Origin: Agrobacterium cucumeris
GTDB lineage: Bacteria > Pseudomonadota > Alphaproteobacteria > Rhizobiales > Rhizobiaceae
Reading direction: 5' to 3'
Length of the DNA stretch: 64,000 nucleotides
Assembly (NCBI RefSeq): GCF_030036535.1
Contig: NZ_CP080388.1
Span: 620,001 to 684,000, forward strand
In this document: positions 16,565 to 36,444 of the stretch, piece after piece
Layout of the letters: each line of letters begins with the position of its first letter
How positions within the stretch are numbered: the first letter of the stretch is position 1
The notes under the pieces: generated by a model
Told to the model about the DNA's origin: nothing
The model's database searches: none
Seen by the model: the letters and a program-made list of their open reading frames with translations, nothing else
Translations under genes and position numbers: made by a program

Positions 16565-16586
16565 GTCATTTCTCCTGAGGACAAGA

Positions 16587-17591
16587 TCACGCCGCGCGGG
16601 AAAGGCGATGCGTGGCCAAGAGTTCAATCGAGGCAAGCCGCTGATCGGCTCCCACATGCGGCGGTTCGATGATGAATTCCTCGATGCCGTGTTCTTCGGA
16701 AAGCGCACGCAACGCCCGGTGAATATCTTCTGGCGCGCCATGGAGCACGTTGGGCTTGCGCTCCTCGATGCGATAATCGCTGCCACCGGACTGGCGGGCG
16801 AACTCTTCCGCCTGCTCCCGCCGGCCGAGGTTGAATGCCCTGCCATCGCTCAGAAATACCCGGTAGATGCGCTGTCCCTCCACCTGCCTTGCGGCGTGAT
16901 CGGGGTCACTCGCGGCAAAAGCCGACAGGGCAAGGACCGGAGCTTTGCCGCCGCTTTGTTCTCGGAAAGCCAAAACACTGCTGCGAAGAACCTCCGGATC
17001 ACCATTGAGGTGACCGGCAAAAACGAAGTTCCATCCCTTTGAGGCCGCAAGCCTTGCGCTTTCCGGGCTGGCGCCGAGCAGAAACCTCTCCGCTGCAACG
17101 GGAGGCGCCGGCGTTGCCTGCAATCCGGCCTGCGCGTGGTCCTGTGGCGCTGCACCAGACAAGAATGTGGTGAGTTCCCCGAAAGCCGTTTCGAAATCCG
17201 GCTTTCTCGCCGGGTCATAAGCCTGTTGCAGGGCTGAGGTTGCCAGCGGCAACCCGCCCGGTGTCTTGCCAACACCAAGATCGACCCGGCCGGGTGCAAG
17301 CGCCGATAGCACGTTGAAGACTTCGGCAACCTTATAGGGGCTGTAATGCTGCAGCATCACGCCACCTGAACCGACGCGGATGCGGGATGTCTTCGCCAGA
17401 ATCCACGCCACCAGCGCCTCGGGTGCTGAACCGGCGAGTTCCGGCGAATTGTGATGCTCGGCCACCCAGAACCGCCGGTACCCCAGATCTTCGGCGCGTC
17501 TGGCAAGGTTGATCGTGTCGCGGAATGCGCCCGCCGCATCCTCGCCCGCCGAAACGGGGCTCTTATCCAGCAAACTGAGAGTATACATCAT
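16587..17591 (-). CDS. LLM flavin oxidoreductase, MsnO8 family (CmoO-like)
   Basis: 334-residue luciferase-like enzyme beginning MMYTLSLLDKSPV, the usual N-terminus of the MsnO8 subgroup, with WVAEHHNSPELAGSAPEAL and VGSGGVMLQHYSPYKVAE. Start chosen at 17591 with GAGGTG just upstream; the next codon is also Met. First gene of the minus-strand unit that continues through the second LLM enzyme, deacylase, acetyltransferase and importer. Its B. subtilis counterpart by context is CmoO (YtmO). Exact reaction unknown. Confidence 0.86.
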   Translation of the reverse strand: MMYTLSLLDKSPVSAGEDAAGAFRDTINLARRAEDLGYRRFWVAEHHNSPELAGSAPEALVAWILAKTSRIRVGSGGVMLQHYSPYKVAEVFNVLSALAPGRVDLGVGKTPGGLPLATSALQQAYDPARKPDFETAFGELTTFLSGAAPQDHAQAGLQATPAPPVAAERFLLGASPESARLAASKGWNFVFAGHLNGDPEVLRSSVLAFREQSGGKAPVLALSAFAASDPDHAARQVEGQRIYRVFLSDGRAFNLGRREQAEEFARQSGGSDYRIEERKPNVLHGAPEDIHRALRALSEEHGIEEFIIEPPHVGADQRLASIELLATHRLSRAA

Positions 17592-19296: not shown

Positions 19297-19336
19297 GCTC
19301 AACTCCCTCAAAAAATAACCCGTTGAAAGCGCTCAC

Positions 19337-19882
19337 TCAGTCCAGCGAATGATAACGCCCGTTCTGGTAGACCAGCGAATGTCCGGAGCCTATGCGGATC
19401 GCCTCTACCTTGCCGATGATGATGACATGGCTGTGCCGCTCGATTGCTTCTTCAATGGTGCAATCGATAGCGGCAACGGCGTCCTCAAGGATGGGCGCGC
19501 CACTTGCAAGCCTGGTCCACTCCGCGCCGCGATAACGGTCCGCACCCTTCAGGCCGCCAATGCCGGCAAACTGGTTGGCGATGAACTGGTGGTTCGCGCC
19601 GATAATGTTGACGGCGAGGTGACCAAAACGCTGCACCACCGGCCATGTGGACGACGAACGGTTGAGCGCCACCAGAATTCTCGGCGGATCGACAGACAAA
19701 GCGGTAGCTGAAGTGACGGTCGCACCCGTGCGCGCCTCGCCTTCTCCGGCGGTGATGACGCTGACACCGCCGCCGAGCGTTCTCAGCGCCGCCTTGAGAC
19801 TGTCGGCATCCGCAGCCTTACCCGAGACCGGATCGCGAAGATTGATGAATTGTTGATCCTTGGCCGCATATTGCAGTGTCAT
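19337..19882 (-). CDS. Flavin reductase (NADH:FMN oxidoreductase component of two-component monooxygenases)
   Basis: 181-residue member of the flavin reductase-like family (split barrel). Signatures are LRTLGGGVSVITAGEG near residues 32-47, GATVTSATALSVDPPRILVA, and NIIGANHQFIANQFAG. It reduces free FMN with NAD(P)H and hands it to oxygenases such as the LLM and DszC-like enzymes of this region. It heads a minus-strand pair with the flavoprotein gene, with 40 bases between them. The promoter gap upstream carries a 22-bp AT-rich element shared with 20407-20428. Confidence 0.9.
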   Translation of the reverse strand: MTLQYAAKDQQFINLRDPVSGKAADADSLKAALRTLGGGVSVITAGEGEARTGATVTSATALSVDPPRILVALNRSSSTWPVVQRFGHLAVNIIGANHQFIANQFAGIGGLKGADRYRGAEWTRLASGAPILEDAVAAIDCTIEEAIERHSHVIIIGKVEAIRIGSGHSLVYQNGRYHSLD

Positions 19883-20524: not shown

Positions 20525-21703
20525 TCACGGCCAGGCCAACCGACGTTTGAGAATGAGGCCTGTAAAAGCGCCAAGACCACAAAAAAGGAAAAATACCCAA
20601 CCCGACACCGCGCCCGCATGAATGCCCGACAGCAGCACGCCGATGGTGCAGCCAAGCGCGGTCATGCCACCCCAGCCCATCAGCACACCTCCGGCAAAAC
20701 GGGTTGCCAACCCGCCGGCAGACGGCCAGGATGGCTGGAATTTTCCCGCCGAAAGCGCGGCTGCGAAGCTCGCGAAAATCAGCCCCAGCACGAAGACGCC
20801 GTTAGGCGACAGAAGCGTGGTTTTCACCGCACTGATGCAGCCCCGCACCGTATCGAGGCCCGCAAGCGTTTCCGGCACCCATGCCGCGGATGCGCCGGCC
20901 GTTCTGACGACGCTGCCGAGTTCGGCGGTTACCCCAAGCGGCGCAACGCGGAAATAGGAAAAGGCGCTGATGGCTGCGACCACAACCCCGGTGACGACAG
21001 GCGGCCAGCGTTCGACGAAAACGCTTCGCAGGGCCTGCTGCAGCCGGTTTTCTGGTACGCCCAATGGAACAACCGCTGACTTGTCGAAAAAAAGAACAAT
21101 GAAGATCAGCCCGACCAAAACAAAACCGGCAAGCAACAGTGCCAAGCCGTATCCCAGATGGTGCGGCAGCCAGACCGGTGGGTCGTTGAATACGCTGAGC
21201 GTATAAAGAAAATTCCAGCTGAGGAACGCCAGCAGAAAACCGAGCGCCGCACCGGCAATGGCAAGAACGGAGCCAAGGGCTCCCTCCCCCAACCGGTAAA
21301 AATGCCCGGACAGGCAGGAGCCGGAAAGTGCAGCGCCTACACCAAAAACCGTCGAAGCCAACGCCAGGACCCAGCCGACCGGGCCGATATGCGCATTGGG
21401 CGGCAGACGGCCAGGTTGCGGAACCGGCATCCACGCGATGGTGATGATCTGATAAAACACCACGCCCGCAAGAAGTGCGACGAGAATTGCAAGGACGCCA
21501 TCCGAGCGCCTGTCGTCGATGAAATCCCGGAAATTGCAGAGGAAGCAGAACCGTCCGCGCTGCATCACGATGCCGAAAGCGATACCGGCCAACAGTGAAA
21601 ATGCAAGCTGCCTGCCATTTTCAAGCGTCCCCAGTTGGTGAGCAGCAACAGTCAGCGTGCATAAAATGGCGAGGGCCGCGGAGCGGCGAAAGGTAAGATG
21701 CAT
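20525..21703 (-). CDS. YeeE/YedE (TsuA-type) sulfur transporter
   Basis: About 392 residues with many membrane helices arranged as two pseudo-symmetrical halves. Each half carries Gly/Cys-rich membrane signatures: GRFCFLCNFRD, GAALSGSCLSGHFYRLGEG and GWGGMTALGCTIGVLLSG. In TsuA these conserved Cys line the path for thiosulfate. The start is uncertain: ATG 21703 gives a normal N-terminus but has a poor ribosome site, and a GTG at 21745 is possible. It lies directly downstream of a periplasmic rhodanese, so it likely imports thiosulfate or sulfane sulfur. Confidence 0.85.
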   Translation of the reverse strand: MHLTFRRSAALAILCTLTVAAHQLGTLENGRQLAFSLLAGIAFGIVMQRGRFCFLCNFRDFIDDRRSDGVLAILVALLAGVVFYQIITIAWMPVPQPGRLPPNAHIGPVGWVLALASTVFGVGAALSGSCLSGHFYRLGEGALGSVLAIAGAALGFLLAFLSWNFLYTLSVFNDPPVWLPHHLGYGLALLLAGFVLVGLIFIVLFFDKSAVVPLGVPENRLQQALRSVFVERWPPVVTGVVVAAISAFSYFRVAPLGVTAELGSVVRTAGASAAWVPETLAGLDTVRGCISAVKTTLLSPNGVFVLGLIFASFAAALSAGKFQPSWPSAGGLATRFAGGVLMGWGGMTALGCTIGVLLSGIHAGAVSGWVFFLFCGLGAFTGLILKRRLAWP

Positions 21704-21778
21704 GAAATACCGGATATGGCAGGAGAAAACGCCGGTGCACCTCACTGGCGCACCGGCTTCAAAAACGAAGGCTGCGGT

Positions 21779-22708
21779 TTATTTACCCGTCCAGACCGTA
21801 CCGGTCGGATTGCTGATGGGAACGCCGACCGCATTGCCATATTCGGTCCAGGAACCGTCATAGTTGCGGACGTCGTACCCAAGTATCTTCTTCAAGGCGA
21901 ACCAGGTGTGGCTGGAGCGCTCGCCGATACGGCAATAGGTGATGACCGGGGCGGAGCCGTCGATACCCTTTTCCGCATAGATCGCCTTGATCTCATCTGC
22001 AGATTTGAAGGTGCCGTCCTTGTTGACGATGGTGCCCCACGGCACGTTGACAGCGCCGGGAATATGACCAGCCCGCACTGACAACTCCTTGACGCCATCG
22101 GGGGCGAAAATCTTGCCGGAATATTCATCCGCCGAGCGAATATCGACCAGCTTGATATTATGTTTTCCTTCGGCCACGGCGACCACGTCAACAAACCGCG
22201 CTCGCACCGACGTATCCGGTTCATCAAGCTTCAGTTTCGTTTCGGCCGTTGCGGGTGCTGATGTGTCGAAAGGCAGGCCCTGCGCTTCCCAGAGCTTGCG
22301 GCCGCCATCCAGCAGCTTCACCCGGTCGCCAAGGCCATAGGTTTCAAAAATCCACGCGCCCCAGGCGGCGAACCAGTTATTGTTGTCGCCATAAAGAACG
22401 ATCGTCGTATCGTCGCCGACGCCGGCCTTTTGCAGCAGGGACTGGAAATTTTCCCGCGCGGCAATATCGCGCCGTTCCTTGTCGACGAGGTCCGTATGCC
22501 AGTTGAGGTTCACCGCGCCGGGAATATGCCCGCGCTCGTAGACACCCGTATCGACGCTGACTTCGAAAACCCGAACCTTCGGATTGTCGAGATTTTCCTT
22601 CAGCCAATCGGCCGTCACCAGCGCGTCCGATGCTCCGGCAGCGGACAGCGATACCGTCGACAACAACAATCCGCCGAGAGCCGACGCTACAAACTTGATC
22701 CTGGACAT
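21779..22708 (-). CDS. Exported rhodanese (thiosulfate/3-mercaptopyruvate sulfurtransferase type)
   Basis: 309-residue, two-domain rhodanese. An N-terminal signal peptide (about residues 1-27, ending SAAGAS) points to the periplasm. The inactive N-terminal domain has GHIPGAVNLNWHTDLVDKE; the C-terminal domain carries the catalytic Cys259 in the loop CRIGERSS. The CRIGERSS type loop is common in thiosulfate sulfurtransferases of this group. Start at 22708, preceded by AAGGGG. Together with the YeeE-like transporter downstream it would process thiosulfate outside the cytoplasm and pass sulfur inward. Confidence 0.88.
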   Translation of the reverse strand: MSRIKFVASALGGLLLSTVSLSAAGASDALVTADWLKENLDNPKVRVFEVSVDTGVYERGHIPGAVNLNWHTDLVDKERRDIAARENFQSLLQKAGVGDDTTIVLYGDNNNWFAAWGAWIFETYGLGDRVKLLDGGRKLWEAQGLPFDTSAPATAETKLKLDEPDTSVRARFVDVVAVAEGKHNIKLVDIRSADEYSGKIFAPDGVKELSVRAGHIPGAVNVPWGTIVNKDGTFKSADEIKAIYAEKGIDGSAPVITYCRIGERSSHTWFALKKILGYDVRNYDGSWTEYGNAVGVPISNPTGTVWTGK

Positions 22709-22785
22709 TCCCTTACCCCTTCCTGATTTGATGGCCATTGAAAGGTCGCAACAAAATCGTCCGGAGCGAAGAAACGCTTTTTCAT

Positions 22786-22801
22786 ATTTTCTGTAGAAAA
22801 T
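22786..22801. promoter_or_regulatory. Palindrome upstream of rhodanese gene
   Basis: Perfect 16-bp palindrome ATTTTCTGTAGAAAAT about 80 bases before the rhodanese start, in the 219-base gap after the hydrolase gene. Possible operator for the rhodanese/transporter unit. Confidence 0.4.
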
Positions 22802-22927
22802 AAATGCAGTCACTAAAAACAATCAAAAGGTGAGATTCGAAATTTATGGCGGATAAAACAGCCATAAAGCGCTCAAAGGTTGTGCATGCGACGTTTGGCT
22901 TGACCACATCCGTTTGCAACGGATGGA

Positions 22928-23883: not shown

Positions 23884-24954
23884 GTGAGCAGCACGAGCGA
23901 ATTTCTCTGGTACATCCCCAATGACGTCAAACCCGGCCACAGGGGCGATGCCGTCAGCGACAACCATAACAGCCTCGATACATTGACCAGCCACGCAAAG
24001 GCGCTGGAAAATCATGGCTGGAAAGGTGCGCTGATCGGCACCGGCTGGGGCCGGCCCGACACATTCACGGTGGCGGCCGCCCTTGCGGCGCGCACCACCA
24101 CCTTCGAGCCGCTGATCGCCATCCGCCCCGGCTACTGGAAACCGGCCAATCTCGCATCCGCCGCCGCCACACTCGATCAACTCTCGGGTGGCCGGGTACG
24201 GATCAATGTCGTCTCGGGTCGCGACGAGCTGGCTGCCTATGGCGATGAAGAAGGTGATCAGGCGCAGCGTTATGCGCGCACGAAAGAGTTCATGCGGCTG
24301 GTGCGGCGGCTCTGGACGGAAGAAAATGTCACCTTCGACGGGGATCATTTCCGGGTCAGGAATTCGACTGTCCTGCCGCGTATCGCCGCACGCGACGGCC
24401 GGCCGCACCCGAAGCTTTATTTCGGCGGCGCGTCCGAGGCGGCCGAGCAGGTCGCCGCAACCGAGGCGGACGTGCAGCTGTTCTGGGGCGAGCCGCTCGC
24501 CGGTGTGGGCGAACGGATAGAAAGGCTCAGGCATTTCAGTGAAACGCTTGGCCGCGACCTGCCGCCGCTGCAATTCGGCCTGCGGATCACCACGCTGGTC
24601 CGTGAAACGACGGCAGAAGCATGGCGCGACGCGGAAGCGAAGGTTGCCGAAATGGCAGCAAATAACGGAGCGCGCTGGAACGATCATCTGCAAGGCGTGG
24701 CAATCGGCCAACGCAGGCTGCTGGATCTGCACCGTCAGGGCGATGTTCTGGACGATAATCTTTACACCGCACCGGGCAAGTTCGGCGGCGGCGGTGCGGC
24801 AACCACATGGCTGGTGGGTTCGGCGGAGGATGTCGCGGCGTCACTGCGTAAATACCGCGCGCTTGGCATCACCCACTTCGTGCTTTCCGACACGCCCTAT
24901 CTGCAGGAGATCGAACGGCAGGGCGACAGGCTCTTGCCGCTGTTGCGGGATTGA
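23884..24954 (+). CDS. SsuD-like LLM alkanesulfonate monooxygenase
   Basis: 356-residue FMNH2-dependent monooxygenase close in organisation to alkanesulfonate monooxygenase: FLWYIPNDVKPG at the N-terminus, IRPGYWKPANLASAAATLDQ, LSGGRVRINVVSGRDELAAYGD, and PKLYFGGASEAAEQVAA. SsuD-type enzymes split C1 or larger sulfonates into aldehyde and sulfite. The likely start is GTG at 23884 with GGCGGA upstream; the nearby ATG is out of frame. It stands alone on the plus strand and ends at a hairpin terminator. Flavin could be supplied by the reductase at 19337. Confidence 0.88.
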   Translation: MSSTSEFLWYIPNDVKPGHRGDAVSDNHNSLDTLTSHAKALENHGWKGALIGTGWGRPDTFTVAAALAARTTTFEPLIAIRPGYWKPANLASAAATLDQLSGGRVRINVVSGRDELAAYGDEEGDQAQRYARTKEFMRLVRRLWTEENVTFDGDHFRVRNSTVLPRIAARDGRPHPKLYFGGASEAAEQVAATEADVQLFWGEPLAGVGERIERLRHFSETLGRDLPPLQFGLRITTLVRETTAEAWRDAEAKVAEMAANNGARWNDHLQGVAIGQRRLLDLHRQGDVLDDNLYTAPGKFGGGGAATTWLVGSAEDVAASLRKYRALGITHFVLSDTPYLQEIERQGDRLLPLLRD

Positions 24955-25011: not shown

Positions 25012-26190
25012 TCAGCCGCCCGCCGCCTTGATGCTCTGACGGCCGAGAATCGTGCGGATCATGTGGCTTTGTGGCGCATGCGCCCTTGCCGTGATGGCAT
25101 CGCGATGATGGCGTTCGAGATTATAATCCCGGCGCAGGCCGCGATTGCCGCCAAGCTCCAGCGCCAGATCCGTCACCGCCACCGCATTGTCGATCACCAC
25201 ATGGCGAACGGCGAGCGCATCGGTTCCCACCCTTTCGCCAGCGTCGATATCGCGGGCGACGGAGAGAAGTAAACGCCGGTTTGCAGCAAGAAGCACTTCG
25301 ATCTGGCCGAGACCTTCCTGAATGCGGGGAATGGAGGAGAGCGGCGCACCAAGGCTTGCCGGGACATGGCCATTCAGATGACGCAGGAGATCGTCACGTG
25401 CCGAAAGCGCTACACCGTGATAGACGGAAGCCAGTAGCGCGAAGAAATTATAGCCGTCTGCCTCATCGCGCCGCAACGGCTCATCCGCCGGCTGTTCGGC
25501 AACGATATCAGCAAGCGCCACCCTTACCTCCTTCAGCACCAGGTCATGGCTTGCGGTGGCATACATGCCGGTCGCCTCCCATGCCTTTTCCTGGGTGATG
25601 CCCGGCGCATCGAGCGGTACCAGAAGCTGGATCAGGCGCGGCGCCTCTTCCGTCGTTACCGCAAGCACGATCGCCCATTTCAGACCCGGCAAGCCAGTGA
25701 CGAAACTCTTGCGGCCATTGACAACCCAGACATCGCCCTCGATCCGCGCCGTCGTTTCCGGCAGGCCGCCATGAGCCGGCGAACCGACCCCCGGCTCCGC
25801 CTGCGCATTGTTCAAAAGCGCCGGCTCCCTGCTATTGGCGGCCAGCACCCTTGAAGCAAGTGCCACCGGCCATTTGCCGCGCCGTATCGCGGCATGAACG
25901 CTGTAATGCATGGCGAGGATGAGGGCGGTGGACGGATCGCCCCTGGCAATGGCGGCGATGACGGCATGGGCCGTCTCAATGCCCTCGCCCCAGCCGCCAT
26001 CCTTTTCAGCCGTGACGAGACCCAGCAGGCCGGACTTGAAAAGCGCCTCGAAATTGCCGGCGGCGAATTCGCCGCTTTTGTCATGGTCCGCCGCCGTCAG
26101 GCTGAAATCGTCGGCCAGCGCAGTTGCAACGGCAACGGGGCTGGATTGCTGCTCCAGCGGGCGCGGAACGGCAGATAACGCACCACTCAT
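25012..26190 (-). CDS. DszC/SfnB-like flavin-dependent monooxygenase (acyl-CoA dehydrogenase fold)
   Basis: 392-residue group D flavoprotein monooxygenase. N-terminal helical domain to about residue 120, central beta domain (GGLPETTARIEGDVWVVNGR, then KSFVTGLPGLKW), and C-terminal four-helix domain ending LGGNRGLRRDYNLERHHRDA. The RDYNLERHHRDA motif replaces the RHWRNIR form of the 34197 paralogue at the same place. It starts 4 bases inside the end of the DszB-like gene (26187-26190), so the two are coupled. It probably oxidises a sulfide, sulfoxide or sulfone with reduced flavin, upstream of the desulfinase step. Confidence 0.87.
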   Translation of the reverse strand: MSGALSAVPRPLEQQSSPVAVATALADDFSLTAADHDKSGEFAAGNFEALFKSGLLGLVTAEKDGGWGEGIETAHAVIAAIARGDPSTALILAMHYSVHAAIRRGKWPVALASRVLAANSREPALLNNAQAEPGVGSPAHGGLPETTARIEGDVWVVNGRKSFVTGLPGLKWAIVLAVTTEEAPRLIQLLVPLDAPGITQEKAWEATGMYATASHDLVLKEVRVALADIVAEQPADEPLRRDEADGYNFFALLASVYHGVALSARDDLLRHLNGHVPASLGAPLSSIPRIQEGLGQIEVLLAANRRLLLSVARDIDAGERVGTDALAVRHVVIDNAVAVTDLALELGGNRGLRRDYNLERHHRDAITARAHAPQSHMIRTILGRQSIKAAGG

Positions 26191-27218
26191 GCCACCGCCC
26201 TTTCACTTGCCGTCACGAAACGATCGTCAATCCATTCGCCGAGATCGAAGTCGTTTTCAAGGAAACCCCATTGATGCAGGAAATCCTTGTAGTGACCGAC
26301 AGCGGCGACAAGGTCCGCATCAAGGCCAAGGCCGAGATGGCGGTGGACCTCCGGCCCGTTGGCGGCCAGAACCTGTTCCTCCGTCGCGCCGGCCTCACGG
26401 GCAATAAAACGACGCGTTTCTTCCGGATGCTGCTCCGCCCAGAGCGAGGCTTTGCCGATGGCGGCAACCAGCCGCTCCACCAGATCGGGACGCTCATCGG
26501 CAAGCCGCCCATCAACCGTCAGCACCCGGGGCGAACCGGAATTGATGCGTATTTTCGGATCGGGGTGAAAACCGAATTCCACCACCTGCACCGCACCGAT
26601 CAGATTGGCGGCAGCAATACCCGCCGTTCCCTTGATGAAGATCGCGTCGACCTCACCCCGCAATAGCGCGATGATCTCCTCACCGAAAGACTGCCGGCGC
26701 TTCAGTCCGAAAAGCGACGGTCCTTCCTGCGTGGCCAGCACCGAATCCGTGATGACGATATCCTTCAGTTCGACATCCTCTACCGTCAGCCCTTCCAGCG
26801 AAAGCGCAGAGACAATCCCCTTCAGCGCCGTCGCCCGCATGAAATCGACAATGCCTTCCGGCCTGCGCGGCACGCCGAAACGGCGACCGACAAGATCGGC
26901 AACAGAGCGGATACCGGTCTCAGGCAGGGTGATGATTGCCTGAAACTCATCCGTCCAGGTAATGCCAACAAGGCGCGTATTGCGCCCTTCCGAACGGGCG
27001 CGGATGGGCGGCACATTGCCGCCGTGACGGAAGGACCATTCCAGCGTGTGGTTGAAATGGCTCTGACGAACGGAACGGTCAGGCGAATCGATGATGGATT
27101 TCAGCGATATGCCGACCTCCTCGAAGGTCTGCCCGAGATAACCGAGCTGCGCCGCCAGTCCCACGGGCGTGGGCACCGGGCAGCGTGTGTACCAGATTTC
27201 AGAAAGTGACGTGCTCAT
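26187..27218 (-). CDS. DszB-like sulfinate desulfinase (SsuA/NMT1 fold)
   Basis: 343 residues with the fold of sulfonate-binding proteins but without any signal peptide: the N-terminus MSTSLSEIWYTRCPVP goes straight into the first strand. This matches 2'-hydroxybiphenyl-2-sulfinate desulfinase DszB, in which Cys27, His60 and Arg70 are the active-site residues. Equivalent residues here are Cys13 in the CPVP motif, His54 and Arg64, with the same ten-residue His-Arg spacing and the following GGNVPP (GGEIPP in DszB). The LVGITWTDEFQAI and ADLVGRRFGVP segments also match DszB. It should release sulfite from an organic sulfinate in the cytoplasm. It overlaps the DszC-like gene. Alternative: a cytoplasmic or lipid-less SsuA paralogue. 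Confidence 0.8.
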   Translation of the reverse strand: MSTSLSEIWYTRCPVPTPVGLAAQLGYLGQTFEEVGISLKSIIDSPDRSVRQSHFNHTLEWSFRHGGNVPPIRARSEGRNTRLVGITWTDEFQAIITLPETGIRSVADLVGRRFGVPRRPEGIVDFMRATALKGIVSALSLEGLTVEDVELKDIVITDSVLATQEGPSLFGLKRRQSFGEEIIALLRGEVDAIFIKGTAGIAAANLIGAVQVVEFGFHPDPKIRINSGSPRVLTVDGRLADERPDLVERLVAAIGKASLWAEQHPEETRRFIAREAGATEEQVLAANGPEVHRHLGLGLDADLVAAVGHYKDFLHQWGFLENDFDLGEWIDDRFVTASERAVA

Positions 27219-27285: not shown

Positions 27286-28893
27286 TCAGGATGCGGCGAT
27301 ATGCGCGAAGGCGAGGCTTCCCGCCACACCTTCGGCGCCGATGGTGTGATCGGCGATACGCTTGTTGAAGATGGTAATTTCGGGTGCCGCAACGATATCG
27401 ATGGCCGGCACGTCCTCTACGAGAATCTGCTGAATTTCCTTCCATTGCGCGACGCGCTTTTCCGGATCGATCTCGATGGCGGCGGCTTCGAGAAGCGCAT
27501 CCACCTTCGGATTGCTGTAGGCCGCACCATTGGAGAAAGGCACGCCCTTCTTGAAGTTCTTCGACCAGTAAAGCCGCTGCACGCCGACGGTCGGATCGAA
27601 GAGATTGCTCATGCCCTCATAGGCAAAATCGAAATCGCGATCCGTGTAGATGCGCTTGGTATAGGTGGCGAAATCCTGCGTGCGCACCGTCACGTCGACG
27701 CCGACTTTCGCCAGCGCCTGGCGAATATAGTCCGCGCCGCGCGGATAGGCTTCGGTGCTGGGCACATAATCCAGATTGAGCTTGAAACGGATGCCATCTG
27801 CACCGCGCTTGTATCCGGCCTCATCGAGAAGCGCTTCGGCGGCCTTCAGATCGATCGGATAGGTTTTCAGATCATCCACGAACCATTTCGTCAGCTTGGG
27901 ATTGATCGGCCCGGTGATGGTTGCGCCGTAACCGTAATTAACGGTGTTGAAGATGACGTTGCGGTCGATCACATGCGCGAAGGCGCGACGGACGCGCACA
28001 TCCTTGAACACATCCTTTTCGAGATTGAACTCCACGCGGCTGACGGAATTCGAATATTGATAGCCGTTTGTCTCAAAACCGAGGCTGGGAAGCTCTTTCA
28101 GGCGGTCGAGATCGCTATAGGCGACCGGCGTGCTGGGGGCGAGATCGATCTCGCCGGTTTCAATGGCAATCGCGCGGGCGGATGCGTCGGGAATGAAGCG
28201 GACGATCAGCTTGTCGAGATAGGGGCGCGGCGCATCCCAATAATCGGCATTGCGCTCGAAAACGATATGGCTGCCGCGCACCCACTCCTTGAACTTGAAC
28301 GGGCCGGTGCCGATGGGGGCGAGATTGACCGGGTTTTCCGTCACTTTCGTACCTTCATAGAGATGTTTCGGCACGATGGGCGTTTCGGCGGCGGCGAGCG
28401 CCGTTATCAGGTATGGCGCTGGTTTGGAAAGAACCAGAACCGCCGTCAACTCATCAGGCGTCTCGACGCTTGTGAGGTTCAGGAATGTATTACGGCCGCG
28501 CGGATGCACTTCCTTGATGGTATTGATGGAGAAAGCCACATCGGCGGAAGTGAAGGGCTTGCCGTCATGCCACTTTACGCCGGGCCTCAGCTTGAAGGTA
28601 TAACGCAGGCCATCTGCACTCACATCCCATGATTTGGCCAACAGCGGCTTGGGATTGAGATCGAAATCATAGGTCAGCAGACCTTCGGTAACCTTTGGCG
28701 ATATATAGACGGAATTATAGGCCGTATGCGCGATCGTCGTCAGCACCGGCGGTTCCGATGAGATGAGCAGGGTGGCCGTGCCGCCACTTGCCGGCTCCGC
28801 CGCGCGGAGCTTCAGCCCCGGCAAAGACACCACGCCAAGCGCCACCGAGGCCAGCAGAAATCCTCGCCGCGTCGTCTGGTTGAAAATAGTCAT
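27286..28893 (-). CDS. ABC substrate-binding protein, family 5, copy A of the organosulfur importer
   Basis: 535-residue periplasmic binding protein. The ATG at 28893 has AAGGAGAGGG upstream. The twin-arginine leader begins MTIFNQTTRRGFLLASVALG and runs to about residue 33. The mature part includes FKLRPGVKWHDGKPFTSADV and GVQRLYWSKNFKKGVPFSNG. It is a paralogue of the 37862 protein (YWSKNFKxGxPFSN shared). Divergent from the permease/ATPase operon at 29164 and followed on its own strand by the DszB-like and DszC-like genes, so it likely delivers the substrate of those enzymes. Confidence 0.9.
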   Translation of the reverse strand: MTIFNQTTRRGFLLASVALGVVSLPGLKLRAAEPASGGTATLLISSEPPVLTTIAHTAYNSVYISPKVTEGLLTYDFDLNPKPLLAKSWDVSADGLRYTFKLRPGVKWHDGKPFTSADVAFSINTIKEVHPRGRNTFLNLTSVETPDELTAVLVLSKPAPYLITALAAAETPIVPKHLYEGTKVTENPVNLAPIGTGPFKFKEWVRGSHIVFERNADYWDAPRPYLDKLIVRFIPDASARAIAIETGEIDLAPSTPVAYSDLDRLKELPSLGFETNGYQYSNSVSRVEFNLEKDVFKDVRVRRAFAHVIDRNVIFNTVNYGYGATITGPINPKLTKWFVDDLKTYPIDLKAAEALLDEAGYKRGADGIRFKLNLDYVPSTEAYPRGADYIRQALAKVGVDVTVRTQDFATYTKRIYTDRDFDFAYEGMSNLFDPTVGVQRLYWSKNFKKGVPFSNGAAYSNPKVDALLEAAAIEIDPEKRVAQWKEIQQILVEDVPAIDIVAAPEITIFNKRIADHTIGAEGVAGSLAFAHIAAS

Positions 28894-29163
28894 ACGATAC
28901 CCTCTCCTTGATTGAACCGGCGAAAAACCGGCAAACTGAACGGTCGCGCTTAGGAAGAAGTTTGTTCCGCAGAGGAGAGTGAGTTTGGCATGAAGAACCA
29001 ACCATTCTCATAATTAGGAATTATCTTTTCTTTATGGCGCATATTTCCGTAAATTTCAGAAAATAATTCTATTACTCTTTGACAAATTCCATAAAATTAG
29101 TCAACTAATGCTCACGCCTTTCGAGGCTGATTTTATGTTTCCCACGCTTACGGACTGGAGCCG
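28894..29163. promoter_or_regulatory. Divergent promoter region of the organosulfur importer
   Basis: 270-base AT-rich gap. It contains TTCCATAAAATTAG (29087-29100), identical over 13 bases to the element at 20407, and ATTCTAT (29066-29072), the other half of that element. These may be binding sites of a shared sulfur-island regulator acting on both directions. No gene inside. Confidence 0.5.
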
Positions 29164-30153
29164 ATGTCGAATTCGAAACGGATTTTATCGCAGGCAAGAC
29201 GGGTGGCCATTCAGGCCATTCCGACGGTTCTCGGTATCGTCATCCTGAACTTCTTCCTGCTGCAGCTGGCACCTGGCGATGCCGCCGATGTCCTGGCAGC
29301 GGAAGCGGGTTCGGCAACCGTCGAGACCATGGCGGAAATCCGCTCCCGCTTCGGGCTTGATCTGCCGGTTCTGCATCAGCTGATGAACTATCTCGGCAAT
29401 CTGGCCCAGTTCAGCCTTGGTTTTTCGCCGCGATACGGCATGCCTGTGGCAGACCTTATCGGCCAGCGCCTGCCCGGCACGCTGGCGCTGATGGGCGCAG
29501 CCCTTGGTATCGCGATCTTCGTCGGCGTGTTCCTCGGCTCCATCATGGCGCTTTTCTCCGGCAAGCTGCCGGACCGGATCATTTCGATTGGCTCACTGAT
29601 CTTTTATTCCGTACCGGGTTTCTGGATCGGCCTGATGCTGATCCTGACCTTTTCGGTCAAGCTCGGCTGGCTTCCGTCCGGCGGCGACAGCACCATCGGC
29701 AGCAGCCTTACCGGGTTTTCAGCCTTTCTCGACAGGCTGCGTTACATCGTGCTCCCTGCCCTGTCGCTGGCGCTCTATTTTCTGGCCATTTATGCCCGCC
29801 TCACCCGCGCGGCGATGCTGGAGGTGAAATCCCAGGACTATGTGCGCACGGCGCGTGCCAAGGGCGTTTCGCCGATTAGGCTCACCACGCGCCATATCCT
29901 GCGCAACGCCCTCATACCCATCACCACCATGGCCGGCATGCATATTGGCGGCCTGCTCGGCGGCGCCGTCGTGGTTGAAACCGTCTTCAGCTGGCCGGGC
30001 CTTGGCCGCCTTGCTTTCGAAGCCGTCATGGCGCGTGATTTCAGCGTGTTGCTCGGCATTCTGCTTCTCTCCTCCCTCGTCGTCATCATCGTCAATGCGG
30101 CCGTGGACCTGTTGCAGGCATGGCTTGACCCCCGCATCGGAGAAAGCCGATGA
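29164..30153 (+). CDS. ABC transporter permease (DppB-like), organosulfur block
   Basis: 329-residue inner-membrane permease with a first helix at about 13-36 (AIPTVLGIVILNFFLLQLAP), the DppB-type periplasmic segment, and a coupling loop around SQDYVRTARAKGVSPIRLTT. First gene of a tightly packed five-gene run (permease, permease, ATPase, ATPase, aldo-keto reductase). It overlaps the next gene by 4 bases (ATGA). Confidence 0.93.
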   Translation: MSNSKRILSQARRVAIQAIPTVLGIVILNFFLLQLAPGDAADVLAAEAGSATVETMAEIRSRFGLDLPVLHQLMNYLGNLAQFSLGFSPRYGMPVADLIGQRLPGTLALMGAALGIAIFVGVFLGSIMALFSGKLPDRIISIGSLIFYSVPGFWIGLMLILTFSVKLGWLPSGGDSTIGSSLTGFSAFLDRLRYIVLPALSLALYFLAIYARLTRAAMLEVKSQDYVRTARAKGVSPIRLTTRHILRNALIPITTMAGMHIGGLLGGAVVVETVFSWPGLGRLAFEAVMARDFSVLLGILLLSSLVVIIVNAAVDLLQAWLDPRIGESR

Positions 30154-31145
30154 ACTCATCCCACACGACAGCGGTTCTCAACACGGCCGAACTTGGCGCT
30201 GAAGAGACCAATCCCAAACCGAAAAAGCCGGAAGAAAAGGCCTGGCCCTATATTCATGCGCCGGATGCGCTTTCGGCCCGCTCCGTCTCCGTGCCGCGAC
30301 GTGGACTGCGGCGCGAACTGAAAATCTTCCTCACCAATCCCAATGCCATCGTCGGGTTGCTGTTTCTCGCCACCGTCATCGTCACCGCACTGATCGCCCC
30401 GTTGATCTATCCTGGCGATCCCCTGGAAATGGTGGCCCGCCCGTTCCTGTGGCCGGGCCAGAACGCGGCCTATCCGCTCGGAACCGATTCCATGGGCCGG
30501 GATGTTCTGGCCGGCATCGTGCATGGCGCGCGCATCTCGCTCACCGTCGGTGTCGTGGCAACGCTGATCGGCCTCACCATCGGCATCGCGGTTGGCGCTT
30601 TCGCCGGTTATTTCGGTGGTGTGATTGACGACATCCTCGTCAAGCTCATCGAAATCTTCCAGACCTTGCCGAATTTCGTGCTCTTGGTAGTGCTCGTCGC
30701 CATCGCCCAACCGTCTGTCACCACGGTCACGTCAGCCATCGGCATCATCACCTGGCCGCTCGTTGCGCGCCTTACCCGTGCGGAATTCCGCGCCATCCGC
30801 GAAAAGGACTATGTGCTCGCCGCGCGTAGCCTCGGTTATGGCCATGCCCGCATCGTTTTTCAGGAAATCCTGCCCAATGCGCTGCCGCCGATCATCGTCA
30901 CCTCCTCGGTCATGGTGGCGGGCGCGATCCTTATGGAAGCAGCGCTGTCCTTCATGGGTCTCGGCGATCCCAACCGTGTCTCCTGGGGTTCGATGATCGG
31001 TTCCGGCCGTGATGTCATCCGCACGGCCTGGTATCTGACCGCCCTTCCCGGCCTTGCCATCGTCTTCACCGTCATTTCGCTGAACCTCATCAGCGATGGC
31101 CTCAACGATGCGCTCAACCCCCGCTTTTCGGAGGAACGCCGATGA
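30150..31145 (+). CDS. ABC transporter permease (DppC-like), organosulfur block
   Basis: 331-residue permease with an extended hydrophilic N-terminus (about residues 1-55) before the first helix, then YPLGTDSMGRDVLAGIVHGA typical of DppC, and a coupling loop near EKDYVLAARSLGYGHARIVF. It overlaps both neighbours by 4 bases. Forms the channel with the preceding permease; served by the binding proteins at 27286 and 37862. Confidence 0.93.
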   Translation: MNSSHTTAVLNTAELGAEETNPKPKKPEEKAWPYIHAPDALSARSVSVPRRGLRRELKIFLTNPNAIVGLLFLATVIVTALIAPLIYPGDPLEMVARPFLWPGQNAAYPLGTDSMGRDVLAGIVHGARISLTVGVVATLIGLTIGIAVGAFAGYFGGVIDDILVKLIEIFQTLPNFVLLVVLVAIAQPSVTTVTSAIGIITWPLVARLTRAEFRAIREKDYVLAARSLGYGHARIVFQEILPNALPPIIVTSSVMVAGAILMEAALSFMGLGDPNRVSWGSMIGSGRDVIRTAWYLTALPGLAIVFTVISLNLISDGLNDALNPRFSEERR

Positions 31146-32140
31146 GCAAACTGATCGAAGTCCATGATCTCTCCGTCAGCTTCGGCTCAACCCAGCCGGT
31201 CAAAGGCGTCAGTTTCGATGTCAGCCCCGGCGAAATGCTGGCGATCGTCGGCGAAAGCGGCTCCGGCAAATCCCTGACGGCGCTTGGCCTGATTGGCCTC
31301 CTGCCCTCCCACGCCAAGACCGGCGGCCGGGTTCTGCTCGAGGGCCGCGATCTGCTGCCGCTTTCCGAGCGGCAATGGCGCGGCATTCGCGGCCGGGATA
31401 TCGGCATGATCTTTCAGGAGCCGATGACCTCGCTCAACCCGGTGCTGACGGTCGGCGAACAGATCATCGAGGTGCTGCGCATCCATGAGAAGATCGACCG
31501 GCATCAGGCGCGCAAACGCGCCATCGAGCTGCTGGACCTCGTCAACATTCCCGATGCCGGCCGCCGGGTGGATGATTATCCGCACCAGCTTTCCGGCGGC
31601 ATGCGCCAGCGTGTGATGATCGCCATCGGCGTTGCCTGCAATCCGAAACTCCTGATCGCCGACGAGGCGACGACGGCTCTTGACGTGACGATACAGGCGC
31701 AGATCCTGCAGCTGCTCGACAATCTGCGCCGCGATCTCAACATGGCGGTCATCCTCATCACCCACGATCTCGGTATCGTGGCACAATGGGCAGACCGGGT
31801 GATGGTCATGTATGCCGGCCGTAAAGTGGAGGAAGGGCTGCCGGAACCGGTTTTCTCCAACCCCTACCATCCCTATACGCGCGGCCTGCTTGCCGCCTCG
31901 CCGCGCGCGGAAGATGGCCAGCATTATCGCGACGGGCCGCTCATCGAGATTCCCGGCTCCATCGTTTCCGCCACGGGGGAACGCGGTTGCGCCTTCCGGC
32001 CACGCTGTCCGAGCGCCCGTGGTTTCTGCGGGCAGTTCGTGCCACCGCTAAGGCCGATTTCGGAAGGCCGCTACGCCGCCTGCCCCTTCGTATCCCCCAC
32101 ATCCCAGGAGGTGTCCAATGACGCTCTTGTCAGTGCATAG
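31142..32140 (+). CDS. ABC ATPase (DppD-like)
   Basis: 332-residue ATPase: Walker A GESGSGKS (37-44), signature LSGGMRQRV, Walker [13 protein letters not shown], and the C-terminal oligopeptide-transporter extension with Cys-rich [14 protein letters not shown]. It overlaps the previous gene by 4 bases and the next ATPase by 23 bases, so translation is coupled. Confidence 0.94.
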
Positions 32141-33053
32141 TCTTTCCACCCACTATACGGGCGGACGCGGAACCGTGCGCGCCGTCGATGACGTCTCGCT
32201 CGATATCGAGGCGGGCGAAACCGTGGCACTGGTGGGCGAATCCGGCTGCGGCAAATCCTCGCTCGGCAAGTCGCTGATGCGTCTGGTCGAACCGTCATCC
32301 GGCAGGATCACCTTCAAGGGCGCCGATGTGACGGCAATGACGCCTTCGCAGCTGCGCGGCATACGCCGCCGCATCCAGATGATCTTTCAGGATCCCTTCG
32401 CCTCCCTCAATCCGCGACAGACGGTGCGCACCATCCTTACCGGGCCGCTGAAAGTGCACGGCATCGGCGACCGGGCGCGCCAGCGGGAGATTGTTGAAGC
32501 CATCGTCGCGCAGGTCGGCCTGCCCACGGATTCGCTCGACCGTTATCCGCATGAATTTTCCGGCGGTCAGCGCCAGCGCATCGGCATTGCCCGCGCACTG
32601 GTTCTGGAACCGGAACTGGTGGTCTGCGACGAGCCGGTCTCGGCGCTCGATCTGTCGATACAGGCGCAGATCCTCAATCTTCTGGTGGAGATGAAAAAGC
32701 GGCTTTCGCTGTCCTATCTCTTCGTCTCGCATGATCTGTCCGTGGTGCGTTATTTCTCCGACCGCGTGCTGGTCATGTATCTCGGCAAGATCGTCGAAAG
32801 CGCACCGACATCGGAACTTTGGGCTTCTCCGAAGCATCCTTATACTCGCGCCCTTCTCGCTGCCGTTCCGGATCCCGCGCGCCGCAAGCAGGCCGCGCCC
32901 ATTTCCGGCGATCTGCCGAGCCCGCACGATCCGCCATCCGGCTGCCGGTTTCACACACGCTGCCCGCTCGCCACCGATCTCTGTCGCGAAAAAGCGCCGG
33001 ATTACACCCTTTTCGGCAAGAACCACGCCGTGGCCTGCCACCATGCCCAATAA
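32118..33053 (+). CDS. ABC ATPase (DppF-like)
   Basis: 311-residue ATPase: Walker A GESGCGKSS (40-48), signature FSGGQRQRIGIARAL, Walker B LVVCDEPVSALD, and a C-terminal SGCRFHTRCPLATDLC extension. The ribosome site CAGGAGG lies inside the end of the preceding gene. Pairs with the DppD-like protein. Confidence 0.94.
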   Translation: MTLLSVHSLSTHYTGGRGTVRAVDDVSLDIEAGETVALVGESGCGKSSLGKSLMRLVEPSSGRITFKGADVTAMTPSQLRGIRRRIQMIFQDPFASLNPRQTVRTILTGPLKVHGIGDRARQREIVEAIVAQVGLPTDSLDRYPHEFSGGQRQRIGIARALVLEPELVVCDEPVSALDLSIQAQILNLLVEMKKRLSLSYLFVSHDLSVVRYFSDRVLVMYLGKIVESAPTSELWASPKHPYTRALLAAVPDPARRKQAAPISGDLPSPHDPPSGCRFHTRCPLATDLCREKAPDYTLFGKNHAVACHHAQ

Positions 33054-33071: not shown

Positions 33072-34127
33072 ATGGTCGACTATCGCTATCTCGGACGCAG
33101 CGCGCTGAAAGTTTCACCGCTAAGCCTCGGCACGATGATGTTCGGAGGCCCGACACCGGATGACGTGGCCTTCCGCATCATCGACAAGGCACGCGAACAG
33201 GGCATCAACTTCATCGATACAGCCGATGTCTATCACGACGGCAAGTCGGAAGAGGTCGTTGGCCGCGGCATCAAGTCCACGCGCGATCACTGGGTTCTGG
33301 CGACGAAATTCGTCAATTCCCATACCAAGGGCCCGAACCTTGGCGGCCATTCGCGCAAATGGGTGATCGAGACCGTCGAAAATTCGCTGCGCCGCCTCAA
33401 CACCGACTATATCGACATCCTCTATTTCCACCGCGCCGTCTTCGATGCGCCGCTGGAAGAGCCGGTGCGCGCCATCGCCGATCTCATCCGCGCCGGCAAG
33501 CTGCGCTATTTCGGCGTTTCGAACTTCCGCGGCTGGCGCATTGCTGAAATTTCGCATCTGGCCGACCAGCTCGGCATCGACCGGCCGGTTGCCAGCCAGC
33601 CGCTCTACAACATCGTCAACCGCACGGCCGAAGCCGAGCAGCTGCCGGCGGCCAATCATTATGGCCTTGGTGTCGTGTCCTATTCGCCGCTCGCACGCGG
33701 CGTACTGACCGGCAAATATCAGCCGGGCGAACAGCCGGGTGCCGATACCCGCGTTGGCCGTGGCGACAAGCGCGTTCTGGAAACGGAATGGCGTCCGGAA
33801 TCGGTTGAAATCGCCCAGAAGGTTGCGGCCCATGCCGCTTCGAAGGGCGTTTCGGCGGCGGATTTCGCGCTCGCCTGGGTGCTGAACAACAAGTTCGTCA
33901 CCGCCGCCATTACCGGCCCGCGCACCGAAGAGCACTGGAATGGCTATATCCGCGCCCTCGATGTGAAAATCGATGCCGAAGATGAAGCACTGGTCGACAG
34001 CCTTGTGACGACAGGCCATCCCTCGACACCCGGCTTCAACGATCCGAGCCATCCCGTCGAAGGCCGCGTGCCGCGCAATCTCGAGGCCGCGCACCGCCCG
34101 GCGCTCAAGCCGCGCGCGGTCGCCTGA
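33072..34127 (+). CDS. Aldo-keto reductase
   Basis: 351-residue NAD(P)H-dependent TIM-barrel reductase. Catalytic tetrad recognisable as Asp in FIDTADVYHDGKSE, the Tyr of that motif, Lys in WVLATKFVN and His in ILYFHRAVF. It follows the ATPase gene by 18 bases with AAAGGAG before the ATG, so it is part of the importer operon. It could reduce the aldehyde or ketone left after oxygenolytic C-S cleavage; this is inference from context. Confidence 0.9.
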   Translation: MVDYRYLGRSALKVSPLSLGTMMFGGPTPDDVAFRIIDKAREQGINFIDTADVYHDGKSEEVVGRGIKSTRDHWVLATKFVNSHTKGPNLGGHSRKWVIETVENSLRRLNTDYIDILYFHRAVFDAPLEEPVRAIADLIRAGKLRYFGVSNFRGWRIAEISHLADQLGIDRPVASQPLYNIVNRTAEAEQLPAANHYGLGVVSYSPLARGVLTGKYQPGEQPGADTRVGRGDKRVLETEWRPESVEIAQKVAAHAASKGVSAADFALAWVLNNKFVTAAITGPRTEEHWNGYIRALDVKIDAEDEALVDSLVTTGHPSTPGFNDPSHPVEGRVPRNLEAAHRPALKPRAVA

Positions 34128-34144: not shown

Positions 34145-34167
34145 CCTGCGGCGCGTAGTGCCGCAGG
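34145..34167 (+). other. Intercistronic hairpin
   Basis: Perfect 8-bp stem CCTGCGGC/GCCGCAGG with a 7-base loop in the 69-base gap between the reductase and DszC-like genes. No T-run follows, so read-through with attenuation or mRNA protection is more likely than a full stop. Confidence 0.45.
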
Positions 34168-34196
34168 CCCTCACATCCGCTCACGGGAAAACCGCA

Positions 34197-35435
34197 ATGT
34201 CCAATCCGAAACCACAGACAACCACCACCAATAATTCCGGCGTGCCGAGCCGTGACGACATCCTAGCCCGGGCAAAGGACATTGCGGCTATCGCGGCCCG
34301 GGATGCCGCCCGCCGCGAGCGTCAACGGGAACTGCCCTTCGATATCTTCGCCCTTATCAAGGAGGCAAAGATCGGCACGCTGCGTGTCCCCGAAGCCAAG
34401 GGCGGACCGGGCGGCTCGATTGCCGACTATATCGAAGTGCTGATGATCCTCGGCGAAGCCGACAGCAATATTCCGCACGCGCTTCGCAGCCATTTCAATT
34501 TCACCGAAAATCTCGCCCTTGCACCCATCGAGCTGGAGGACCGGCGGCATCTCGAACATGTCCTTGCCGGCAAGCTCTTTGCGGGCGCCAGCACCGAGCA
34601 GGGCACCAAACGCCCCGGCGAAATCACCACGCGGCTGAGTGCCGATGGCGACCGCTACCGGCTGAACGGCCGCAAATGGTATGCGACCGGTACGGCCTTT
34701 GCCGATTTCGGCACCTTCAGCGCCATTGGCGATGACGAGCAGCCGATCGGCGTGCTCATTCCGCTTGATCGCACCGGCATCACCATCCTCGACGACTGGG
34801 ACAGCATGGGCCAGCGCATGACGGCAAGCGGCGGCGTGCTGCTTGAAAATGTCGAGGTGCTGCCGCATGAGCTGACAACCCGCAAGCTCGGCACCCAGAT
34901 CGGCCGCCACAGCTCGGCCATGCGGCAGCTGCACCTTGCTGCGTCTGCCGCCGGCGCAGTTCAGGGCGCGCTTAATGACGGTGTGGAATATGTTCTGCGC
35001 CAGGCGCGCACCACGCTTCACAGCGCTGCGGAAACCGCCAATCAGGATCCCTTCGTGCAGAAGATGCTGGGTGAAATCAGCGCCGGCGCTTTCGCCGTCA
35101 AGACTTTGATCCGCGAAGCCGCCAGAACGCTCGACCGAACGGCTGCCGCCTTCGCGAATGGTGACGAAGAGGCCATTGAGGCAGCCCTGCTGGAAGGCTC
35201 GCTTGCCACCGCCCGCACCCAGATCATCGCCTCGCAGCTTTCGCTGACCGTCGCCACCAACCTCTATGAACTCGGCGGCGGCTCGGCGACCTCGAGCGAC
35301 CGGAATTTCGATCGTCACTGGCGTAACATCCGCACTGTCTACAATCACAATCCACTTGCCCATAAGGCGCGGGTGATTGGTGACTATTACCTCAATGGCA
35401 CCACGACGCATCTCAGGGAAGGCCGGGTGTTCTGA
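34197..35435 (+). CDS. DszC-like flavin monooxygenase (acyl-CoA dehydrogenase fold)
   Basis: 412-residue group D flavoprotein oxygenase. N-terminal helical domain, central beta domain (GDRYRLNGRKWYATGTAFAD) and C-terminal helical domain with DRHWRNIRTVYNHNPLAHKA, the arrangement seen in DszC and other sulfide/sulfone monooxygenases. Start at 34197 with GGGAAAA upstream; a GTG at 34158 is less likely because it falls in the hairpin. With FMNH2 from a reductase it would oxygenate an imported organosulfur compound. Confidence 0.88.
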   Translation: MSNPKPQTTTTNNSGVPSRDDILARAKDIAAIAARDAARRERQRELPFDIFALIKEAKIGTLRVPEAKGGPGGSIADYIEVLMILGEADSNIPHALRSHFNFTENLALAPIELEDRRHLEHVLAGKLFAGASTEQGTKRPGEITTRLSADGDRYRLNGRKWYATGTAFADFGTFSAIGDDEQPIGVLIPLDRTGITILDDWDSMGQRMTASGGVLLENVEVLPHELTTRKLGTQIGRHSSAMRQLHLAASAAGAVQGALNDGVEYVLRQARTTLHSAAETANQDPFVQKMLGEISAGAFAVKTLIREAARTLDRTAAAFANGDEEAIEAALLEGSLATARTQIIASQLSLTVATNLYELGGGSATSSDRNFDRHWRNIRTVYNHNPLAHKARVIGDYYLNGTTTHLREGRVF

Positions 35436-35472
35436 CCATGCGAAAGATGCAGGCGGCAAAGGAGGAACAGCA

Positions 35473-36444
35473 ATGAGAACGGAGTTTGTCGCTCCCGCCG
35501 CGAGCCGGGCAGCTTTTCGCCTGCCCACACTTTCCCGCCTGCCGCCGCTGACCGCCTTGCGCGCCTTTGTGGTGGCCGCCCGCCATGCGAGCTTTTCGCG
35601 GGCGGCGGAGGAACTGCATGTCTCCACCGCCGCCATCGGCCAGCAGGTCCGTATTCTCGAAACCCATCTCGGCCAGCCGCTTTTCAGCCGCCAGCGCGGT
35701 GAATTGCTGCTGACGGATGCCGGCAGCGCGCTTTATCCCGGCCTTGCCGATGCTTTTGAGACCATGATCGGCAGTCTTTCCGACCTTATGGTTTCGAATG
35801 CCCGACCGCAGTTGAAGGTTCTGGCGGAAGGTTGCTTTGCCGCCCGCTGGCTGGCGCCGCGGCTGGGCAGCATCGTTCCGGCCCTCGGAGACATCGAGCT
35901 TTCGATCGAATCCATCGAGGGTGAAACCGTCGATCTCACCCATTTTGATGCCGATTGCGCCATCGTCGCCACCCACGCGCAAATTCCGGGCTTTCTTCAC
36001 GAGCCGCTTTTCGCCGATACCGTTAGCGCTGTCTGCACTCCGCAGTTCGCAGCCCGCCATGAGCTTGCAGGCGAGCCCGCCCAATTGCGAAATCTCGGCT
36101 TTGCAATGTTGCGCGGCAATGGCCTCGACGCCGCCTTCGAATGGGCGAATTGGCTGCGCGCCTGCCGCATTCCGCTCCGGCTTTCGGCGACAGGCCCACG
36201 TTTTTCGCGCCAGACGGCGCTGATAGAAGCAATCTTATCCGGCCATGGCATCGGCCTCGCGCGCCACTCGCTAATTTCGGAAGAGCTGAAAAACGGCCGT
36301 CTTATCGCCCCCTTCGGCTCACCACAGCCGACTGCAAGCCGTTACCACCTGCTGACCAGTCCTGACAGGCGGCGGCTGCCGGAGGTCGCATCTCTACTCG
36401 CTCTGTTGCGCGAGGATATACGCTCCCTCGAAGCCGCCGCCTGA
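35473..36444 (+). CDS. LysR-family regulator (GcvA-like)
   Basis: 323-residue LysR protein. N-terminal winged helix (about residues 26-85, with LTALRAFVVAARHASFSRAA and STAAIGQQVRILETHLGQPL), then the effector-binding domain from about 110. GGAGG lies 7 bases before the ATG. It is the last plus-strand gene of the block, 37 bases after the DszC-like gene, so it may be co-transcribed and autoregulate. A candidate regulator of the organosulfur genes; it converges with the LLM gene at 36461. Confidence 0.9.
   Translation: MRTEFVAPAASRAAFRLPTLSRLPPLTALRAFVVAARHASFSRAAEELHVSTAAIGQQVRILETHLGQPLFSRQRGELLLTDAGSALYPGLADAFETMIGSLSDLMVSNARPQLKVLAEGCFAARWLAPRLGSIVPALGDIELSIESIEGETVDLTHFDADCAIVATHAQIPGFLHEPLFADTVSAVCTPQFAARHELAGEPAQLRNLGFAMLRGNGLDAAFEWANWLRACRIPLRLSATGPRFSRQTALIEAILSGHGIGLARHSLISEELKNGRLIAPFGSPQPTASRYHLLTSPDRRRLPEVASLLALLREDIRSLEAAA

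Follow-up and report, generated by a model that had tools for sequence, protein, structure and literature searches.

Does the gene at positions 26187–27218 of a 64,000-nucleotide stretch of the Agrobacterium cucumeris contig NZ_CP080388.1 (this whole stretch is called the window below) encode a substrate-binding protein of an ATP-binding cassette (ABC) transporter, or an enzyme related to DszB, the desulfinase for 2-(2'-hydroxyphenyl)benzenesulfinate (HBPS)? The minus strand carries a single gene in this interval, with a product, P0001, of 343 amino acids. A previous sequence-only reading had placed a cytoplasmic DszB-like sulfinate desulfinase there; its coordinates were right, and the strand, which it did not give, can now be added. 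From the analyses described here P0001 is probably a cytoplasmic desulfinase of a sister family of DszB, which would free sulfite from a different and probably more polar sulfinate made by enzymes of neighbouring genes. The observation of the sequence-only reading was thus confirmed, and its interpretation is supported.

Relation of P0001 to DszB

With P0001 alone as query, a phmmer search of the PDB yielded DszB (2de2, 2de3, 2de4) as the sole match at E 0.01, with an E value of 7.2e-16; a family profile again matched only DszB (E 4.5e-20). These two values exclude chance. The homology was significant over most of P0001, and BLASTP gave 27% identity over 362 columns to the plasmid-borne DszB P0122, which itself matches 2de2 at E 3.4e-147. 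Two AlphaFold models of P0001 were compared with solved structures, one of them built without DszB sequences, and DszB outranked SsuA/TauA as fold match in both. According to these models P0001 has the fold of DszB (periplasmic-binding-protein type 2); the fold is common to SsuA/TauA as well.

Cys13, the only cysteine of P0001, His54 and Arg64 were aligned with Cys27, His60 and Arg70 of DszB by phmmer, by BLASTP and in a MAFFT alignment of 329 rows, which included 121 family proteins, 75 proteins of the DszB set, 124 locus rows and 7 binding proteins. The spacing from His to Arg is 10 in P0001 and DszB alike and the GGxxPP motif is kept; the residue assignments made previously were reproduced. 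Cys occupies its column in 120 of the 121 family proteins, P0001 among them (the exception, P0095, is truncated at its N-terminus), and in 73 of the 75 proteins of the DszB set (the others being one gap and one Gly). Of the 124 locus rows 115 have Cys here and the remaining 9 Ser. His was found in 121/121, 75/75 and 122/124, and Arg in 121/121, 75/75 and 124/124 of these groups, respectively. The triad was present in none of the seven binding proteins compared, five of which came from a family search of the own genome and two of which had been set aside once the motif was seen to be absent. Ser25, Phe61 and Gly73 of DszB correspond to Thr11, Phe55 (following the His, as in DszB) and Gly67 of P0001. 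Passages in PMC6100217 describe a hydrogen bond of Ser25 to His60 and a bond of the Gly73 carbonyl to Arg70 in the crystal structure of DszB, as well as an inactive C27S form; in a passage of PMC12168087 His60 and Arg70 are referred to as anchoring residues.

Natural counterparts of the C27S form occur in the family. Ser-for-Cys members with Arg and GG kept are L067:1846-2880 (minus strand), G733:C18:69334-70365, G436:C1:259932-260954, G432:C1:2140882-2141904, G509:C1:150830-151852 and a gene at about 9250-10970 (minus strand) of L107; the copies in G432, G436, G509 and G733 adjoin a Cys-bearing copy.

A maximum-likelihood tree was constructed from 81 rows (33 family, 39 DszB, the two intermediates P0205 and P0206, and the 7 binding proteins). 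The family rows formed one clade (100/99) and the DszB rows another (100/98). Family, DszB and the two intermediates were separated from the binding proteins at 99/98, a split which is less sure than these values suggest, since long branches meet there (program warning). By its position in the tree the P0001 family is a sister clade of DszB, outside the DszB clade itself, and it is filed here as a DszB sister family predicted to work like DszB, not as DszB. At the base of the P0001 family, on a long branch, a Rhizobium leguminosarum plasmid protein was found (L110:7962-9137; 392 amino acids, YTNCPLV motif, about 25% to P0001), the gene of which adjoins a homocysteine S-methyltransferase gene, itself located after an amino-acid-type ABC transporter block.

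P0001 is most likely cytoplasmic, judging from its N-terminus. The sequence GAGG precedes the ATG on its upstream side, and a hydropathy screen over the 40 N-terminal residues recognised a signal peptide neither at the annotated start (1.2) nor in the in-frame upstream extension (0.43), in agreement with the sequence-only reading; two binding proteins of the window reached 2.65 and 2.52. Values of at least 1.9 were obtained for 0/121 family proteins versus 4/7 binding proteins, the screen being a crude one in which 15 of 75 proteins of the DszB set likewise reach 1.9. The closest relatives, which would speak against an enzyme if they were secreted binding proteins, turned out to be Cys-His-Arg proteins without recognisable signal peptide in the sister clade of DszB.

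Genes around the putative desulfinase gene

The features of the window considered here are:

15224..16846, minus: second NtaA/DmoA (DszA-family) monooxygenase, 35% to DszA; coding probably from near 16564
19337..19882, minus: flavin reductase, possible supplier of reduced flavin mononucleotide (FMNH2); RutF/HpaC-type models, below cut-offs
20525..21745, minus: YeeE-type sulfur transporter (Sulf_transp), domain match
21779..22822, minus: rhodanese-type sulfurtransferase, domain match
23884..24954, plus: SsuD-like luciferase-like monooxygenase (LLM), below the alkanesulfonate monooxygenase cut-off
25012..26190, minus: acyl-CoA-dehydrogenase-fold, flavin monooxygenase-type enzyme; 4-base-pair (bp) overlap with the desulfinase gene
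26187..27218, minus: putative DszB-like sulfinate desulfinase P0001 (Cys13, His54, Arg64), from sequence, fold models, triad and tree
27286..29001, minus: Opp/Nik/Gsi-type substrate-binding protein with a signal peptide like that of the twin-arginine (Tat) pathway; ends 67 bp before the desulfinase start
29164..30153, plus: Opp-type ABC permease B, divergent; conserved neighbour
30150..31145, plus: Opp-type ABC permease C, named by likeness to the annotated locus L083
31142..32140, plus: Opp-type ATPase D, named likewise
32118..33053, plus: Opp-type ATPase F, conserved neighbour
33072..34127, plus: aldo/keto reductase, conserved neighbour
34158..35435, plus: SfnB/DszC-like flavin monooxygenase-type enzyme, 27% to DszC
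35377..36444, plus: GcvA-like LysR regulator; overlaps the SfnB-like gene if the listed start is used, the true start being probably more internal
36461..37813, minus: NtaA/DmoA (DszA-family) FMN-dependent monooxygenase, 39% to DszA
37862..39457, minus: second Opp-type substrate-binding protein; signal peptide from the hydropathy screen

Judged by these predicted functions, positions 13956–39457 are an organosulfur island of about 25 kb around the desulfinase gene, with four LLM-type/DszA-family monooxygenases, three SfnB/DszC-type genes, a flavin reductase, a YeeE-type transporter and a sulfurtransferase. The gene 18352–19311 is SfnB-like; its product matches the SfnB model in the N-terminal part alone and is without the C-terminal stretch which holds the DszC-type His. 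Open reading frames resembling a DNA adenine methylase and a phage tail protein lie at 40707–42778; a prophage edge may be situated past about 40.7 kb.

The overlap of the desulfinase gene with a DszC-like oxygenase gene, which had been claimed previously, was found as 4 bp (ATGA) common to the P0001 stop and the start of 25012–26190, as dszB overlaps dszC on pMyong1. The name of the overlapping gene can be refined: its product is 23% to DszC (E 4.9e-16), and the solved chains 5z8t/5gj7 are closer to it (E 6.5e-50). The second DszC-like gene and a DszA-family gene, which were said to occur within 12 kb, were both found (34158–35435 and 36461–37813). The product of 34158–35435 is like SfnB, DszC and MsuC in its matches (SfnB, DszC, methanesulfinate monooxygenase 6u76) and in its His site, but it stays below the SfnB and DszC cut-offs. 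By domain matches both partner proteins have the acyl-CoA dehydrogenase fold. At the site where an acyl-CoA dehydrogenase of the own genome, L113, has Tyr-Glu (YEGT), His-Ala was found in 25012–26190, His-Asn in 34158–35435 and His-Asp in DszC; we take the Glu to be the dehydrogenase base and the aligned His to be the catalytic His of DszC. Among the best-match rows of the two genes, 72/73 and 73/74 have this His, the rest being gaps. Three of the seven other loci of the own genome which were compared gave a row, with Tyr-Glu in L113, Gly-Ala in L114 and His in L117 (paralogue).

A contiguous dszA-dszB-dszC order is absent from the window, in which the B-type gene overlaps the flavin-type gene and the DszA-type genes are located about 9 kb to either side. 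On plasmid pMyong1 of Mycobacterium intracellulare subsp. yongonense (L086:437-4118) there is a dszA-dszB-dszC run, followed by transposase genes. P0001 differs from DszB/TdsB also in its position beside an Opp-type transporter and an aldo/keto reductase.

Conservation of the neighbours was assessed in 83 loci, which consist of the best 80 of 553 confirmed ones plus L083–L085; the set is Rhizobiaceae-heavy and conditional on having the gene. Neighbours were counted at at least 40% identity over half of the query, within flanks of at most 10 kb for 80 loci. Relatives of the Opp transporter were very frequent (binding protein in 81, OppB in 79, OppC in 79, OppD in 80 and OppF in 80 loci; OppB on the opposite strand in 78), as was the aldo/keto reductase (79/83). 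The flavin-type gene resembling 25012–26190 was present in 71 loci, in 70 of them directly downstream of the desulfinase gene. SfnB-like relatives were found in 64, SsuD-like ones in 27, the flavin reductase in 15, and DszA-family relatives of the 36461–37813 type in 19 and of the 15224–16846 type in 9 of the loci.

A paralogue with 55% identity to P0001 and the same motifs is encoded in the own genome 21 kb past the window end (L002, L112), next to NmrA-type, SfnG-like, amidohydrolase, Opp-type binding-protein and DszA-family genes. On pSymA of Sinorhizobium meliloti 2011 (L111) the downstream run consists of a second desulfinase-like, an NmrA-type, an FAD (flavin adenine dinucleotide)-monooxygenase-type and a DszA-family (NtaA/DmoA) gene, the middle genes being named after the annotated L084. 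The region L111:5421-18138, in a record which carries no annotation, presumably corresponds to the divergent operons sma2085-sma2077 and sma2087-sma2101, from gene number, divergence and rough position. Both operons are reported in PMC5940162 as up-regulated when part of pSymB is deleted; no word starting with "sulf" occurs in the main text of that paper.

Proposed route, substrate pocket and alternatives

We infer catalysis, the substrate class, the order of the steps, the feeding by neighbouring oxygenases and sulfite as the product from the similarities described above, and the route would most likely proceed as follows. An organosulfur compound would be imported by the Opp-type transporter and oxidised to a sulfone by the SfnB/DszC-like flavin enzyme or enzymes, with FMNH2 perhaps supplied by the product of 19337–19882. 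A DszA-family enzyme would cleave a C-S bond of the sulfone, yielding a sulfinate, the sulfinate group of which would be held in the cleft of P0001 by Arg64, His54 and Gly67, as in DszB. Cys13 would then donate a proton to the sulfur-bearing carbon, giving SO2/sulfite and a desulfurized product; the sulfite would feed sulfur assimilation, and a carbonyl remaining after the cleavage could be the target of the aldo/keto reductase.

Several points weigh against a DszB-like desulfinase. The identity of P0001 to DszB is only about 25–27%, the model built without DszB rows shows a smaller lead of DszB over SsuA, and two of the seven comparison binding proteins were chosen after their missing motif had been seen. 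Asn26 of DszB is Arg12 in P0001. Ser replaces the catalytic Cys in six family genes (9 rows), and therefore proteins which lack the nucleophile make use of this fold too. A DszC-type gene together with a DszA-family gene (both at least 40%) was found in only 21/83 loci within the flanks, and activity data for any family member were not found in the open-access literature. Leu152 and Leu226 of DszB, which we take to be biphenyl-pocket residues, are both lost: Leu152 is in a stretch which is missing from the family (19 versus 36 residues; 17 fewer), and Leu226 is Gly197 in P0001, with Gly in 121/121 family proteins. Phe61, Trp155 and Phe203 are named as biphenyl-pocket residues in a passage of PMC6100217; Trp155 is Thr130 in P0001 (Thr in 117/121 family proteins). 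Retained in the family are Phe61 and, in the Phe203 column, Phe in 107/121 with Tyr in 13.

The loss of residues contacting biphenyl strengthens the earlier suggestion that the substrate is not dibenzothiophene. The family has conserved residues of its own, among them Arg51, His57, Asp90, Glu91, Lys196, Arg224, Asn226, Arg231 and Asp236, which were defined as residues present in 97% or more of the 245 rows from the family and the loci, and in less than 20% of the DszB set. Since the tail-binding pocket differs and invariant polar or charged residues absent from DszB are present, the family would appear to grip a sulfinate as DszB does, but one with a different, more polar tail. Density functional theory calculations on DszB, as given in a passage of PMC6100217, led to the conclusion that the Cys proton acts by electrophilic aromatic substitution. 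An aryl or vinyl (sp2) sulfinate would therefore be the likeliest substrate class, by analogy with this attack on an aromatic carbon.

P0001 could instead be a soluble, signal-less binding protein or ligand sensor for a sulfonate or sulfinate, which performs no chemistry and contains its cysteine incidentally. Its binding-protein fold, SsuA/TauA as next-best structural matches, the ABC binding-protein label on most of the named ones among 120 listed relatives, and the Cys-to-Ser members are in line with this. We regard it as unlikely, since in the main family and in the DszB set the Cys varies hardly more than His and Arg do, since it is absent from the seven binding proteins, and the transporter block already has its own signal-bearing binding proteins. 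P0001 also differs from SsuA/TauA by the lack of a visible signal peptide in the hydropathy screen, by its separate clade in the tree, and by its score with the NCBIfam model SsuA_fam (TIGR01728), 76.7 bits versus a cut-off of 163.5, which just one of seven matches of the own genome passes.

A DszB-fold enzyme which cleaves the C-S bond of a non-sulfinate (sulfonate, sulfone or thioester), without sulfite as product, seems less probable still. The charged residues peculiar to the family and the partial loss of the DszB pocket would suit such an enzyme, as would the SsuD-like neighbour and the SfnG-like gene by the paralogue, which point to sulfonate/sulfone metabolism; but the full set of residues gripping the sulfinate in DszB is kept (His60, Arg70, Gly73 and Phe61, with Thr for Ser25). 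That P0001 is a true DszB is very improbable and was rejected on clade position and pocket residues: triad, fold and some database names agree (e.g., Devosia sp. DBB001), and Agrobacterium sp. MC501 is cited among dibenzothiophene desulfurizers in a passage of PMC4327732, but the family is a sister clade and not within DszB, contiguous dszABC genes are lacking, and an oligopeptide-type transporter would be unlikely for dibenzothiophene. Thi5/NMT1 hydroxymethylpyrimidine synthases have a cysteine-rich CCCFC motif; the NMT1 Pfam domain was detected in P0001 (41.4 bits versus a cut-off of 20.5), and this assignment was rejected, as P0001 has one cysteine and no CCCFC motif.

Distribution, naming and significance

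Relatives of P0001, the putative desulfinase, were found in 94 plasmid records and in many named rhizobia; the best 80 of 553 confirmed loci come from named genomes. Even genome draws found the gene in 4 of 385 genomes at the level of the class, in 8 of 398 at that of the phylum and in 4 of 151 (at E 1e-50) at that of the family, each count including the genome of the window; one of the eight phylum genomes, G460, is the weak match L102, which was counted as a binding protein. Two more genomes of the genus were in the family draw, and neither gave a match at E 1e-50. The gene is far from confined to a single genome, yet its distribution is patchy.

Automatic annotation as an ABC binding protein, which had been predicted, holds for most of the named relatives among the 120 listed of 774, which bear names of ABC or transport-system binding proteins; it does not hold for six of them (P0047, P0062, P0063, P0102, P0111, P0116), which carry desulfurase, DszB or HBPS-desulfinase names. 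No NCBIfam model matched DszB (P0122) itself at E 1e-20, and the transporter label may persist in the family for this reason. A Chelatococcus DszB peptide quoted in a passage of PMC4839641 was compared as well; it matches DszB of Rhodococcus erythropolis and is hence uninformative on the P0001 family.

Passages in PMC4839641 and PMC12168087 regard the DszB step as the slowest in the biological desulfurization of fuels. If the proposed function is true, a large sister family which grips the sulfinate in the same way and has another pocket would provide new templates for this step, and many rhizobia would take sulfur from an organosulfur compound by a dedicated route, which is mostly hidden under a transporter label. 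More tentatively, and with rather less confidence than for the desulfinase itself, the new family may complete a 4S-like route, so far unrecognised, for aryl or vinyl sulfur compounds which are soluble in water and probably originate from plants or soil. These would enter rhizobia and agrobacteria via a dedicated Opp-type transporter, and the Cys-to-Ser copies next to Cys-bearing ones may be non-catalytic partners.
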